A DNA stretch of 47,134 nt from a virus. This document shows, piece by piece, positions 29,447 through 35,334 of this stretch. Within the stretch, counting starts at the first letter, position 1. Each line of letters starts with the position of its first letter. The notes under the pieces were generated by a model. It did not search any database. It was not told the DNA's origin and saw only the letters and a program-made list of their open reading frames with translations. The stretch covers positions 1-47,134 of IMG/VR virus record IMGVR_UViG_3300017605_000338. One strand, 5' to 3'. The position numbers and the translations under genes are program-made.

Positions 29447-32044
29447 CTACGGCTTGGCGAATAGGTCGTAGTGATGGCGCTCGAGCAGCGCGTCGCGGTC
29501 GGCGAGCGACTCTGCGAATGCTGCTTGCTGCTCGGCGTCGAGGCCGGGCACGAGGCTCGCGAAGTGCGTGCGCGCCTCGAGCTCGCTGTGAAATGACAGC
29601 GCGGATCGCTTCCAGGCATGCGAGGCCTCGACAAGCGCGTCTGTAACCTGACCTGGACTCCATGCAGTTGCATCGCGTAGCGCATGCTGCGTCGCCGCGA
29701 TGTAAACGTCAAACGGCCTCGAGCGCACTACCGAAAAACTGCCGCGCAGGTCGCCGGGCTTGCCTCGAAAGCCAGGCATCGCGAGAGGGTGTCGGTCGCG
29801 CAGATGTCGAGGCAGGCCGGCGAGCTCGGCCGTCACGTCGCGCGCAGCGATCTCCGTTGTTAGTTCGGAGAGCAGAAACCGAGTGCCGCTCGTGCCGTGG
29901 AACTCGAGCGCGGGCCCGAACGCGTGCGCCTCCTCGTGCACGAGCGTCGCGAGCGCCCGCAGCTCGTTGTCGGTCGGCACTTGGCGCAGCGATAGCGCCT
30001 CGGCTGCATGGGTGAGCTCGACGGCAGTGTCGACGGCCATGCGCAGCGCGCCGCTGTGCTCGTTGCGTGTCGCAGCGATGCCGCTCGCAGCGTCGGCAGC
30101 CGTCGGCTCGAAGGTGCGGATCGCATTCGAGGTCGCGGTCGCAGCGCGGCCTGCTCGCTGGTATCCGATGTCGTCGAGCATGCCCTGCACAGGCGCGCGC
30201 ACGAGGCTGCCCTCGATCGGGCCCTTGGCAACGCCTAGGCCGATATCCTCTACGCCGCGTGCGAGGTCGGCAGCGATGCGCTGCCGGTCCGGTATTCTCG
30301 CCGGCCTCGAGCTCGGCACGTCGGGCGGTGCGGGTCGCGGTACGCGAACGATCAGCTCGGATATCGGGCCCGAGCTCGGCGGCGCTGTTGCCGTGGTGAG
30401 GGTGTAGTTCGGCCCTCGAGTGATCGTCGGCGCGCCGAGCGGCCTGCCCGAGCTCGGCAGCGGCGCAGGCGCTCGAGCGGGCCCGCCGACGGCCTCGGCA
30501 GCGCGCGAGCTCGGCGACCTCGGCAGCGGCGCGCCTGGGGCAGTCGGCAGCGACGAGCGGATCGGCGGCGGCGGCGGGATGCCCGGCAGCGAGGCCTGCT
30601 GCGGTCGCGCAGGCCGGGTCGGGCGCGCGTATGGGCTATCAGGCGGCGGCCTGATCGTCGCCGGATCGATGACCGGCAGCGCGACGCATCGGCACGCGTA
30701 GTAGTGGGTGTCGTAACCTGGGTGAGCTCTCTTGCCTGTCTTGGGATTGACGACAGGCGGCGAGTCCCATGCTTGCCGCGTGCCCTCGAGCGCGCGATGT
30801 CCAGGCCTGACCTTGACGTCGCCTGCGGTGTGCCAGTCGTAGTGTGTGATCCCGAGCGCCTCTTGACGGACCTTGGTTGTCTCGGCGTGAAATTTCCCGA
30901 CGGCATCGTTCGCGATGATCACGGCCTGTTGTTCCGAGATGCCATCGACGGACTTTAGAAGCTTCGCGGCGAGCGCGTCGGGTCGCAGACCTTGCTCGAG
31001 GCCGTGCCGCACAGCGGCCTGCGCGGCGCTGTAGGTCGCGTCGGTCATGTCGCGGACGCGGATAGTCTGCGCGCGCACGAACTTGTCGAGGTGCTCGCCG
31101 AGGCCGGCCTCGACGTCGAACACGTTGATCGCGACGAGTGGGTCAGAGTCTGGCGGGCCGTCGAGGCGCTGCAGCTGCTCGAGCTGCAGCGTGTAGCGCG
31201 GCACGCGAAACGCTGCGGCGATCTGGCGCTCGAGCTCGGCGCGACCGTAGTCGAGCGTCCGCAGGCCTGCGCGCACGATGTCGGCGCGAATGTCGTAGCG
31301 CAGCGCTGCTCGAGCTCGAGCGAATGCCGCTGCGAGCACGTCGTCGCTCGAGTCGCGGCGAGCAGAGGCGACCTCGGGCGGCTGCACGTTCGCGTGCACG
31401 TAGTCGAGCGCGCCCGGGTCGAGCGGCGTCACGACACGCACACCGCGTCGCCCGAGCTCGTAAAGGATGCCGTCGAGCAGCGTGCCCTGCGCCCGCCACA
31501 TAGCGCGCTGCTCGGTCGTGAGCGGCTCGCGCGCCTCGGGCAGGATGACCAGCGCGTCGACTGGTCTGCCCGGGCTCTCGTCCAGAGCCTTACGCAACGC
31601 ACGCACGATCGACACGCCCTCGAAGATGCCGCCGCCGTCGGCTGCGAGTATCTCGTGCGCGAGCCTCGAGCTTGCCTCGGACCAGCCGAGGGCGATCAGG
31701 TCGTCGGCATGCCGCACAGGCAATGCGAGCTTCCAGCCCAGCCCTAGCGCGAGCGTTGTCTTGCCTGCTCGAGGCCCGCCGACAATCGCGACTCGCATCG
31801 GCGCAGCGTCGCGTCGAGGCGCAGCCGCTCGAGCCGCAGCCGCTCGAGCGGCGACGAGTGTCGGCAGCTCGGGCAGGACATGCTGCGAGATGGTCTCGCG
31901 CACTCGTTTGCCTACGCCGAGCAGCGCGGCGAGGTAGCCGATCAACGGCAGCCGCGGAAACTCTGCCGGCCTCGAGATGACCGGCGATATCGCAGCGTCG
32001 ATGCGCACAACGCGTCGGCGAGCGGCGAGGGCTGCGAGCGTCAT
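29447..32044 (-). CDS. MuF minor head protein with inserted P-loop kinase-like domain and C-terminal zincin-like domain
   Basis: 865 residues from ATG 32044, overlapping the portal stop (ATGA). Residues 1-82 are the start of a phage Mu gpF/SPP1 gp7 head protein. Residues 83-208 are an inserted P-loop domain: Walker A GGPRAGKTT (89-97), acidic HADD (112-115), then EGVSIVRALRK and a Walker-B-like VDALVILPE. MuF sequence resumes at about 230 and ends with its signature (HYDWHTAGDVKVRPGHRALE, PGYDTHYYACRCVALPVID, 401-460). A Pro-rich linker (about 460-590) leads to a C-terminal domain with HEEAH (703-707) and Glu in SELTTE (727-731), the layout of a zinc metallopeptidase. MuF proteins enter the virion, so both extra domains could be delivered to the host. 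Enzymatic activity is inferred. Confidence 0.82.
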   Translation of the reverse strand: MTLAALAARRRVVRIDAAISPVISRPAEFPRLPLIGYLAALLGVGKRVRETISQHVLPELPTLVAARAAAARAAAPRRDAAPMRVAIVGGPRAGKTTLALGLGWKLALPVRHADDLIALGWSEASSRLAHEILAADGGGIFEGVSIVRALRKALDESPGRPVDALVILPEAREPLTTEQRAMWRAQGTLLDGILYELGRRGVRVVTPLDPGALDYVHANVQPPEVASARRDSSDDVLAAAFARARAALRYDIRADIVRAGLRTLDYGRAELERQIAAAFRVPRYTLQLEQLQRLDGPPDSDPLVAINVFDVEAGLGEHLDKFVRAQTIRVRDMTDATYSAAQAAVRHGLEQGLRPDALAAKLLKSVDGISEQQAVIIANDAVGKFHAETTKVRQEALGITHYDWHTAGDVKVRPGHRALEGTRQAWDSPPVVNPKTGKRAHPGYDTHYYACRCVALPVIDPATIRPPPDSPYARPTRPARPQQASLPGIPPPPPIRSSLPTAPGAPLPRSPSSRAAEAVGGPARAPAPLPSSGRPLGAPTITRGPNYTLTTATAPPSSGPISELIVRVPRPAPPDVPSSRPARIPDRQRIAADLARGVEDIGLGVAKGPIEGSLVRAPVQGMLDDIGYQRAGRAATATSNAIRTFEPTAADAASGIAATRNEHSGALRMAVDTAVELTHAAEALSLRQVPTDNELRALATLVHEEAHAFGPALEFHGTSGTRFLLSELTTEIAARDVTAELAGLPRHLRDRHPLAMPGFRGKPGDLRGSFSVVRSRPFDVYIAATQHALRDATAWSPGQVTDALVEASHAWKRSALSFHSELEARTHFASLVPGLDAEQQAAFAESLADRDALLERHHYDLFAKP

Positions 32045-33489
32045 GCGTCGTAACGCGGTGGCACTGCAGGCGGCGCAGGCGGCACGGCAGGCGGCTCCGG
32101 CTCCGGATTCGGCTCGGGCTCCGGCTCGGGGTTGGCGAGGCGCTCGAGCTCGTAACGCAGTGCGACCTCGCGACTCTCGACGTCGAGCTCGTCTAAATCG
32201 CCGCACTTCGCGAGGTGTAGCGCGGCCTCCTCGGGCTGGATGATCCGAGCGTTTGCCAGCGTAGCGAGCGCGTCGCTCGTGATCTTGAGAGTCTCGGCTT
32301 TTTCCTTCGCCGTCGGTTGCCACAGCGGCGGATAGGTGACCTCGAATTCATCGACGATCACGCCTTTCGTCGGCCCTCCGTCGATGGCCATCACACAGCG
32401 CACGAGCTTATCGATCTGCGGCGTGAGCCGCTGCGCGCGCTCCGTCGCTACCTTGTCGTACCAGGCTCGAGTGTCGCTCTCGCCGGTCGCATTGAGTCCG
32501 GCGGGGCTGCGTCCAAACAACACTGTAACGGGCGTCTCAGCAGCGGACGCAACGCGCATCATAAAGCGATCGAGCAACTCGGGCACACCGGTAAACGGTG
32601 TCGGCGTGCGCTCGAAAGTCTCGCGCTCATCGATCAGCAGCGAGCGGCAAACGCTGCGACCCAGATCCATCAGCCGGATCCGCTGCCGCAGCTTTTCCTC
32701 GCCGGCGCTGGTCAGCAGCTGCATAAAGTTGTTGATCTTCAATACGCCTTGCGACGCGTCTGTCATGAGGTGCGCTGCGCTCATCCACGACGACGACGAC
32801 GCCTGCACGGCTTGGTACACACGCTGTAATACCGAGTCGTCCCATTGACTCGCAGACTGCAGGCCCCATCGCGACGTCGGCGCGCCTCGAAACGCTAGGA
32901 GGCGCGACTCGTGCACGATGTAGTCGATCGTCTTGTTCGTCGAGGTCTGCCGGTTCGCCGAACCACGGGGCAGCGTCGGCGTCGATATGCGATAGGTCTC
33001 GACGCGACCGTAGTTCGGCGCTGCGATGTCCTCATAGTATGACTCTTGCTGCAGCTGCGGGCGGCGGATGACAGTCAGGTGCGAGAGCGAGCGCACAGCG
33101 CCGAGCTCGAGCGGCTCATTGAGCGGCAGGCCGTCATTGACGCCGAGCAGCACAGCGCCGAATCCGTAGAGGCGCGCCCATATCCAGGCCTCGCGCAGCG
33201 CGGCATCGGCGCCGAGCGCGTTGAGTAGCTTTTCGATCTGCTTGGCGCTGCTCGACGCGTCTACCATCGAGTCGGCCGGCAGCGAGACGCCGAATCCAGC
33301 GCGCAGCGCGTCGCCGGGCAGCTGCTCGATAATCCGAGCGCATATGTCGTCGTCGGTGTGCAGCGCCTCGAGCGCGCTATCGGGCAGCTGCGACGACATG
33401 CGCGGGACGTGCGCGCGCAGCTTGTCTCGGAGCGTGCCGAGGCCGGTGATCGCGTTTTCCCAACTGTCGAGCCGCAGGTCGAGTGCCAT
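32041..33489 (-). CDS. Portal protein (DUF1073)
   Basis: 482 residues. The features ICARIIEQLPGDALRAGFGV, AWIWARLYGFGAVLLGVNDG, PVTVLFGRSPAGLNATGESD and YDKVATERAQRLTPQIDKLV are those of DUF1073-type portals. The last 40 residues are Pro/Glu repeats (PEPEPEPNPEPEP), probably flexible. It is the dodecameric DNA channel; the next gene is the MuF minor head protein, as in SPP1 and Mu. Confidence 0.9.
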   Translation of the reverse strand: MALDLRLDSWENAITGLGTLRDKLRAHVPRMSSQLPDSALEALHTDDDICARIIEQLPGDALRAGFGVSLPADSMVDASSSAKQIEKLLNALGADAALREAWIWARLYGFGAVLLGVNDGLPLNEPLELGAVRSLSHLTVIRRPQLQQESYYEDIAAPNYGRVETYRISTPTLPRGSANRQTSTNKTIDYIVHESRLLAFRGAPTSRWGLQSASQWDDSVLQRVYQAVQASSSSWMSAAHLMTDASQGVLKINNFMQLLTSAGEEKLRQRIRLMDLGRSVCRSLLIDERETFERTPTPFTGVPELLDRFMMRVASAAETPVTVLFGRSPAGLNATGESDTRAWYDKVATERAQRLTPQIDKLVRCVMAIDGGPTKGVIVDEFEVTYPPLWQPTAKEKAETLKITSDALATLANARIIQPEEAALHLAKCGDLDELDVESREVALRYELERLANPEPEPEPNPEPEPPAVPPAPPAVPPRYDA

Positions 33490-33501: not shown

Positions 33502-33783
33502 CTATCTCTCGCTCTCGCCGAGCTCGCGCGTGACGTTGTTTGCAGTGCCGTCGAGGATTGGCGCGCCGAGCGGCTCGAGGTCGCGCGACAGCTTGGCGCG
33601 CACGGCGGCATCTTTGCTCTCGAGTAGCTTTCGCAGCGCGACGGTTCGCTCGGCGTTGCGAGGCAACGTGTCGATGATGTGCTGCGCGAGCACGCCGAAC
33701 GGTTCACTCACTGCGCGCAGCTCGGGCGGCAGGTGTGCGAAGCCGAAAAACTGCGCGATCTGCTCTCGGTGCTGACTCGACAT
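33502..33783 (-). CDS. Acb2-like small protein (candidate cyclic-nucleotide sponge)
   Basis: 93 residues from ATG 33783. The sequence is helical: FFGFAHLPPELRAVSEPFGV, LAQHIIDTLP, NAERTVALRKLLESKDAAVR. The C-terminal pattern (N/S-x-E-R/K-T/S-x-A-L-x-x-L-x-x-x-x-x-A) is that of Acb2-like proteins, which bind and hide cyclic oligonucleotide signals of CBASS and Thoeris immunity. Its place between terminase and portal is not required for assembly. The assignment is by pattern recall only and needs a profile search. Confidence 0.55.
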   Translation of the reverse strand: MSSQHREQIAQFFGFAHLPPELRAVSEPFGVLAQHIIDTLPRNAERTVALRKLLESKDAAVRAKLSRDLEPLGAPILDGTANNVTRELGESER

Positions 33784-33864
33784 GCGGGCACATATAGTCA
33801 CTGCGCGCGCCTGTCCAGTGATCTCGGCCTACTGTGCCAGTCGGGAAAAGGGAACCGCTGCGGA

Positions 33865-35334
33865 TCAGAGGTCGCTGAGCGCGTCGAGGCCGGCGAGATA
33901 GTCGCCGAATCCGCCTGCGAGGCACCACCTTAGCGCCTGGGTCTGCGCGTCCACTCGATCGTTCGCGACTCCACGGGGGAAACGTTTGTGCTCGATGACC
34001 CAATCGAGGATCCACGGCTCGAGCGATGGGTCAGGTAACCAGACATTGCCGGCAGCGAAGATCGGTTGCGTCGCGTAGGCTCGCGCGATTTTGGAGCCGT
34101 CGGGCAGAATCGCGATGATGCCCGGGATCTGTGATTTGAGCGTCTCGATTACCGCAGGCCCGTTCGCCTTATCCTCGATCAGGATCGCGTTTGCCTCGGG
34201 GAAACGAGCGTAAAGCGTGCGCACGGCAGCGATAGTGCCGATAAAATCGAGGTGTTCTCGGACCTCGGCGAGCAGGTAGAAGTCGGGCGGCTTGAATGCC
34301 CACACCTGACCGGCGACATACGAGGCCGTCTCGTGCGACTTGAATGCGCAGTCAAAACTGATCACGACGAGCGCGCCCTCGAGTCGCGGGCGCGTCTTGT
34401 AATACTTGTGCATCCACTCGTCGTGATAGATCGCGCCGCCTGCCGGAACCGGGTCCTGTTGATCCTGCGCTGCCCACCCATCCGGACCAAATTCAGCTTT
34501 GCGCCGGTCTACTTCGGCATCGTTCCATCGCGCCTCGCACAGCAGCTCGCCCTCGCGCGTGCGTGGGTCCACCCATCCGAGCGGCGTCGGCGCTCGAGCG
34601 GCTGCGCTGTAGTATCGCATCGGCATCGACAGGACCGCGTAACCCTGCTCGGCTGCCTGCCCTGCGAGGTCGCGGTCGACAAGCCTCTGCATGATGATCG
34701 TGCGCGTGTTATTTCCCGGCAAAACACGGGACGCCATTGTTTCAAACCACCAGCGCTCGCAGCGCTCGAGCGCGCTCGGCGAGTGCGCCTCGAGCGGTTT
34801 GATCGGGTCGTCCACCACTTGCCGATGCGCGTGAAAACCAGTCGGAGAGCCTCCGACGGATATCGCTTGGCGGATGCCGCCTTTGTCGTTCTGCAACCAA
34901 TTTGCCAGCCAGCGACCGCGCTGCGGCGTCCAGACGTCGCCGAATAGATCGCGGTACCATTCGCCCTCGAATAGGCTGCGGCAGCGCAGCGAGTCACGCA
35001 CAGCGAGCGTGTCGGCATAGGCGCCGAATTGCCACTGCGTGCCCGGGGACCAGGACCATTCCCAAGTCGGCCACATGACGCAAACGGTCGTCGATTTGCT
35101 CGAGCCGGGCGGCACGTTGATCACGAGCCGAGGCAGCTGCCCTCGCGACTGCGCCTCGAGATGCTCGCACAGCGCGCCCACGTGCCAATTGTCGACAAAT
35201 GGCGCGTTAGGCACGACAATCGGCCACGCCGCACGAATGTACTCGTGCAGCGTAGCGGGTCGTCGTGCGCGTCGCGTCGCTCGCCGTGCGTGCTCTGAGA
35301 TCAGAGCGGCGAGCTTGTTTTTAGGGTGTGCCAC
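33865..35334 (-). CDS. terL: Terminase large subunit
   Basis: 489 residues starting at GTG. ATPase domain: Walker A VPPGSSKST (74-82) and HRQVVDDPIK as a probable Walker B. Nuclease domain: VVISFDCAFK, ILIEDKANGP and NDRVDAQTQAL supply the three acidic clusters of an RNase H fold. It translocates and cuts DNA at the portal. A circularly permuted map would suggest headful packaging. Its start overlaps the small upstream gene by 14 bases. Confidence 0.94.
   Translation of the reverse strand: MAHPKNKLAALISEHARRATRRARRPATLHEYIRAAWPIVVPNAPFVDNWHVGALCEHLEAQSRGQLPRLVINVPPGSSKSTTVCVMWPTWEWSWSPGTQWQFGAYADTLAVRDSLRCRSLFEGEWYRDLFGDVWTPQRGRWLANWLQNDKGGIRQAISVGGSPTGFHAHRQVVDDPIKPLEAHSPSALERCERWWFETMASRVLPGNNTRTIIMQRLVDRDLAGQAAEQGYAVLSMPMRYYSAAARAPTPLGWVDPRTREGELLCEARWNDAEVDRRKAEFGPDGWAAQDQQDPVPAGGAIYHDEWMHKYYKTRPRLEGALVVISFDCAFKSHETASYVAGQVWAFKPPDFYLLAEVREHLDFIGTIAAVRTLYARFPEANAILIEDKANGPAVIETLKSQIPGIIAILPDGSKIARAYATQPIFAAGNVWLPDPSLEPWILDWVIEHKRFPRGVANDRVDAQTQALRWCLAGGFGDYLAGLDALSDL

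Follow-up and report, generated by a model that had tools for sequence, protein, structure and literature searches.

A small phage protein from a family with remote kinship to the Acb2/Tad1 hairpin proteins: a candidate nucleotide sponge

A 93-residue protein encoded by an IMG/VR virus record of 47,134 bases, the whole of which is referred to here as the window, is best described as divergent from, but related to, the Acb2/Tad1 hairpin proteins (PF24729); it is neither a member of PF24729 as defined nor Acb2. Remote homology between the family of this protein and the Acb2/Tad1 hairpin, with a shared fold, is strongly indicated. The best single explanation of its function, with roughly even chances of being right, is that of a nucleotide sponge; the main rival is that the same fold has been put to some other use, which is possible but clearly less probable. 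Sponges are a main phage route to silencing the defence systems CBASS and Thoeris.

The gene and its neighbours

The gene lies between the genes for the large terminase subunit (terL) and the portal protein (Table 1). Its ORF begins with an ATG at 33783 and the product is MSSQHREQIAQFFGFAHLPPELRAVSEPFGVLAQHIIDTLPRNAERTVALRKLLESKDAAVRAKLSRDLEPLGAPILDGTANNVTRELGESER; were translation to start at the GTG at 33801 instead, the product would be six residues longer (99). A sequence-only reading of this DNA had described a helical protein of 93 residues with the pattern E-R-T-x-A-L-x-x-L-x-x-x-K-D-A-A-V-R, and this description holds: the ORF is exact, the protein is helical in AlphaFold2 models, and the pattern is present at residues 45–62. 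Compared with its nearest relative (L001) over the first 70 codons, the gene shows a pN of 0.072 and a pS of 0.399, and the resulting dN/dS of 0.13 indicates purifying selection on its product. The ORF is a real gene, far beyond chance.

Table 1. Features of the gene, of its product and of the adjoining genes in the window
Feature	Position	Strand	Evidence
93-residue gene, phrog_1761/phrog_5120 family	33502..33783	-	ORF and sequence; phrog_1761 4e-25; dN/dS 0.13 against L001
Short N-terminal helix, residues 8–13	33745..33762	-	AlphaFold2, pLDDT 91.8
First hairpin helix, residues 20–39, with conserved S26	33667..33726	-	AlphaFold2; conservation
Second hairpin helix, residues 44–68	33580..33654	-	AlphaFold2
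Family signature, E45–R62, ERTVALRKLLESKDAAVR	33598..33651	-	Alignment A5, 64 members
Variable C-terminal tail (last 25 residues, 69–93), low confidence	33505..33579	-	Low AlphaFold2 confidence (pLDDT); diverges from L001
terL (terminase large subunit), upstream neighbour	33865..35334	-	PF17289, phrog_38
Portal protein, downstream neighbour	32041..33489	-	PF06381 4e-80, phrog_146

On the same strand, the portal gene is followed by a MuF gene, and a gene resembling that of the terminase small subunit lies further upstream. The MuF domain (PF04233) occupies residues 435–548 of a 958-codon ORF at window positions 29447–32323 on the minus strand. Motifs read by eye in this ORF include a P-loop-like stretch, GGPRAGKTT, before the MuF domain and a zinc-metallopeptidase-like HEEAH after it. 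The true start of the ORF may lie downstream of its GTG.

The family

In PHROGs, the protein is assigned to phrog_1761 (4e-25) and phrog_5120, both listed as ‘unknown function’, and the family motif strings found no match in the literature searched. With the protein as tblastn query, 314 of 50,697 phage records were matched at a cut-off of E ≤ 1, rising to 321 when the cut-off was relaxed to E ≤ 10. The hosts of these phages include Vibrio, Erwinia, Acinetobacter, Brevibacterium, Gordonia, Ruegeria, Myxococcus and Microcystis. Members were also found by a pattern-based scan, in 152 IMG/VR contigs (80 of which were kept) and, within GTDB, in 46 bacterial contigs. Since the scan selects contigs that carry KLLESKDA-type patterns, the first alignment (A2) lacked breadth (Neff 1.96), and sequences from annotated phages, from relatives in actinophages and from prophages in GTDB were added to it.

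Among the 64 diverse members of alignment A5, six positions are invariant (E45, R51, L53, E55, K57 and V61), and F13, H17, L18, P19, L22, S26, L50, K52, D58, A60 and R62 are kept in at least 90%. The family has a signature of its own, LRKLxExKDxxVR. On an ideal helical wheel, R51, E55, D58 and R62 fall within 60 degrees of one another.

In Cellulosimicrobium phage DS1 (L176:2590-3177) the family protein is fused to an N-terminal C2H2-like finger, and in Ochrobactrum phage vB_OspP_OH (L351:765-1133) to an N-terminal CxxCxGxG/anti-TRAP-like module; both modules score below the Pfam cut-off, and the product names ‘sliding clamp’ and ‘anti-TRAP’ on these records do not fit the hairpin part. The gene of Streptomyces sp. 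SPB074 is broken across two reading frames and is probably a decayed copy. One IMG/VR contig (L072) carries two near-identical copies about 1.7 kb apart, at positions 97 and 1838.

Predicted structure

AlphaFold2 modelling of residues 1–69 from 85 sequences gave a mean pLDDT of 91.8 and a pTM of 0.79, and a full-length model from 59 sequences agrees with it. The Acb2 protomer consists of one short N-terminal helix and two long antiparallel helices, as described in a review (PMC12043709). The predicted structure of the window protein shows the same layout, a short N-terminal helix followed by two antiparallel helices.

In Foldseek comparisons with predicted viral structures, named Acb2/Tad1 hairpin proteins made up 13 of the best 50 matches in one search and 12 of the best 50 in another, nine of the latter within the first 20; in these lists they rank after the family's own members. 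The E-values to single Acb2/Tad1 hairpin models, from 0.04 to 3 (best 0.042, probability 1.00), are weak when taken one by one, and it is the recurrence of one family name that points to a structural kinship of the models. The best fold matches in the PDB were generic helical bundles (Z up to 6.5), which are read as a common arrangement. Solved Acb2 and Tad1 structures were absent among the PDB rows from the sequence search, Foldseek and VIA-align 2, an absence which excludes nothing.

Kinship with the Acb2/Tad1 hairpin

The window protein matches no Pfam family at E ≤ 1, PF24729 included. Among the 64 diverse members, PF24729 was nevertheless the commonest Pfam match, found in six at E ≤ 1 (best 5e-4); with a cut-off of 27 bits, these six matches would count as sub-threshold. 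PF24729 was matched in none of seven family-bearing records in one set. In another, none of 39 records (39 of the 136 loci) held a PF24729 gene over the cut-off, and a PF24729 gene co-occurred in one of 12 host genomes, counts which tell little without a background rate.

Besides classic Acb2, PF24729 holds a second, nonclassic branch with the consensus FxYHxPxxxQ...IR...LAx7PxGREKALALTxLEEAxMWANAxIAR. This branch corresponds to phrog_1454 in PHROGs and includes proteins of Lactococcus phage 1706, Paenibacillus phage Sitara and Streptomyces phage KimJongPhill, as well as a solved relative, PDB entry 9ptq (‘Acb2 homolog 43’). It is to this branch that the family is linked by profile comparison. 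With hhalign, a family profile of 135 sequences matched 12 nonclassic proteins at 88.9% (P 2.4e-6, 42 ungapped columns) and 97 nonclassic proteins at 86.6% (P 4.5e-6, spanning residues 8–56). Leaving out the members found by the IMG/VR pattern scan (72 sequences remaining) gave 89.1%, 40 random subsamples gave 67–90% (median 85%), and alignment A5 against A4 gave 79.7%. As a yardstick, the nonclassic branch and classic Acb2, which share one Pfam family, scored 76.9% and 81.4% against each other; the score of the family against the nonclassic branch (80–89%) is therefore no worse than that between the two branches of PF24729 (77–81%).

None of 300 and none of 150 column-shuffled controls reached the observed scores, and reversed profiles gave 0.2%; rotated columns were discounted as a null, since a local alignment can still catch an intact part. 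In a blind comparison with ten families obtained by clustering ORFs of the loci, the sole non-self match was the nonclassic PF24729 family (69.6%), all others scoring at most 0.3%; this null is small, as the ten include the query's own family, the nonclassic one and classic Acb2 (0.3%), and among the remaining seven several are reverse-strand ORFs. The nonclassic set was reached by starting from a protein that Foldseek had placed near the window protein, which introduces a mild selection effect.

Searches with HMMER point in the same direction. phrog_1454 was matched by 46 of the 64 members at E ≤ 0.1 (best 5.9e-5), while each PHROG other than this one, phrog_1761 and phrog_5120 was matched by at most two. 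The window protein itself reaches phrog_1454 at just 0.028 and, reciprocally, one PF24729 protein reached phrog_1761 at 0.09.

The kinship does not extend directly to classic Acb2. Compared by hhalign with p26-type proteins, the family showed no match (0.2% and 0.4%); against ten PF24729 proteins sampled evenly across genomes, most of them classic, it scored 0.2% with the register unchanged, and against classic and nonclassic proteins pooled it scored 48%.

The family of the window protein and the nonclassic branch both consist of small phage proteins with a short helix followed by a hairpin and an F-x-Y near the N terminus, and they share LA-x7-P-x3-E-[RK]-x2-A-L-x2-L in one ungapped register. 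They differ in that the window protein is about four residues shorter before or within the first hairpin helix, lacks the basic residue of the IR motif (Ser26 in its place) and falls below the Pfam model; where the nonclassic branch has LTxLEEAxMWANAxIAR, the family has its own signature. Classic Acb2 (PaP2 p26 and T4 Vs.4; PDB 8h2j and 7uq2) has the same overall anatomy, but its loop differs in length. By way of the nonclassic branch, F15 of the window protein (a position held by Tyr in most family members) aligns with Tyr11 of Acb2 (8h2j numbering), which is the invariant Tyr within GYRDL; R62 aligns with an Arg that is invariant in the last Acb2 helix. The position of Acb2 Lys26 (8h2j numbering; the Lys of NRVKEL, Arg in the nonclassic branch) is occupied by S26, and by Ser in at least 90% of family members. 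Tad1 (PDB 7uav and 8kbb–8kbh) aligns by its C-terminal hairpin with the nonclassic PF24729 profile at an E-value of about 0.02; according to a review, it also has an N-terminal beta-sheet domain, which the window protein lacks.

The sequence-only reading had called the protein Acb2-like, and the pattern that it singled out does carry meaning. As a statement of remote kinship this stands, on the profile scores, the phrog_1454 matches, the predicted topology and the Foldseek neighbours, but not as a statement of identity: the failed PF24729 model, the Ser at the K26 position and the family's own signature rule out Acb2 proper.

A candidate nucleotide sponge

The family is most readily explained as a branch of the Acb2/Tad1 hairpin superfamily that has diverged and may act as an oligomeric nucleotide sponge with another ligand preference, a reading which, on this analysis, has about as much chance of being correct as not. 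The hairpin of two helices, together with the short helix before it, would assemble into a small homo-oligomer, a hexamer by analogy with Acb2. Nine conserved polar residues (H17, S26, E45, R51, K52, E55, K57, D58 and R62) would line candidate pockets, which would hold a nucleotide second messenger of the host. Once the messenger was captured, an effector of CBASS, Thoeris or type III CRISPR type would stay off. The oligomer, the ligand binding and the anti-defence role are all put forward here as parts of a model, and the action against CBASS or Thoeris in particular is a conjecture.

In Acb2, Tyr11 and Lys26 contact the cyclic dinucleotide. Where the first hairpin helix of Acb2 conserves a basic residue, the family conserves a Ser, from which a different ligand preference is predicted; S26 in place of K26 may mean either such a change of ligand or a change of function.

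The second of these possibilities is the core of the main rival explanation, in which the Acb2/Tad1 hairpin fold was inherited by descent but is used otherwise, for instance to bind a host protein or metabolite as a host-takeover or regulatory factor. Besides the Ser in place of the conserved Lys, the family's own charged signature would fit such a use, as would the fusion of two members to zinc-binding-like modules, which are commoner in regulators, and the gene neighbourhoods, which are very different among phages. Against this, those proteins of this hairpin type whose function has been tested, Acb2 and Tad1, are nucleotide sponges, according to review passages. A different use of the fold is a possible reading, though one to be held with some doubt.

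Genomic context

A third explanation is that the protein is a packaging or head-neck accessory working with the adjoining terminase or portal. The order terL–gene–portal is found in the window and in six close-relative loci, and in DumpsterDude (a Gordonia phage) and Ab105-3phi (an Acinetobacter phage) the gene is found within or beside a group of head genes. The sequence-only reading had remarked on the place between terminase and portal, which is correct for the window, but as an argument it is weak: homologues of the window's terL or portal lie near the family gene in 12 of 136 loci, and the order is kept in six of these (the close relatives L001, L008, L009, L010, L013 and L015 only) and absent in the other six.

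Elsewhere the setting is quite different, as seen from the neighbourhoods of the gene in 12 annotated phages, one of which, BirdsNest, has a member found by tblastn at E=5 with a profile E-value of 3.8e-14. The gene adjoins the endolysin gene in Mx4, lies among early small genes in Pupper, between minor tail and lysin genes in Nocardia phage NS-I, between topoisomerase and rIIA in Acj133, 3' of an exonuclease gene in DSS3phi2, and a few genes upstream of terL in vB_OspP_OH. PF24729-type genes recorded as hypothetical proteins are themselves found directly after the portal gene in Gordonia phages Schomber and FlyingTortilla (L206 and L211) and one gene before terL in Arthrobacter phage Jasmine (L208), so that a sponge-type gene in this position is nothing out of the ordinary. 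The earlier reading had seen no assembly role for the protein and had named a head-neck family match as a finding that would speak against a sponge; no packaging or head-neck family in PHROG, Pfam or NCBIfam matched the protein at E ≤ 1. The position of the gene does not support an assembly role, and a packaging accessory is unlikely.

In Gordonia phage Pupper, the family member belongs to a series of small genes close to the left genome end, possibly an anti-defence cluster, and is separated by about 2.3 kb from a presumed nicotinate ribosyltransferase gene, so named in the annotation (gp7 and gp17).

Convergence of amphipathic two-helix hairpins with unrelated functions, which would agree with the lack of a direct match to classic Acb2, with the Foldseek E-values to single models and with how common helical hairpins are, is the least probable explanation, and a very improbable one, as profiles that were shuffled or reversed gave no such scores and phrog_1454, but hardly any other PHROG, is matched by 46 of the 64 members.

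Implications

If the family does consist of nucleotide sponges, it would enlarge the known sponge repertoire, with members in the 321 of 50,697 phage records matched by tblastn at E ≤ 10 that sit under PHROGs of ‘unknown function’ and below the Pfam model. A bolder suggestion, offered tentatively, is that it forms a further, unrecognised sponge branch, in phages of Proteobacteria, Actinobacteria and others, for a signal which the known Acb2 and Tad1 proteins disfavour and which is possibly undescribed; the stripe formed by R51, E55, D58 and R62 would then be the pocket. The conserved polar residues are unlike those of Acb2, and could therefore point to a signal molecule that nobody assays.
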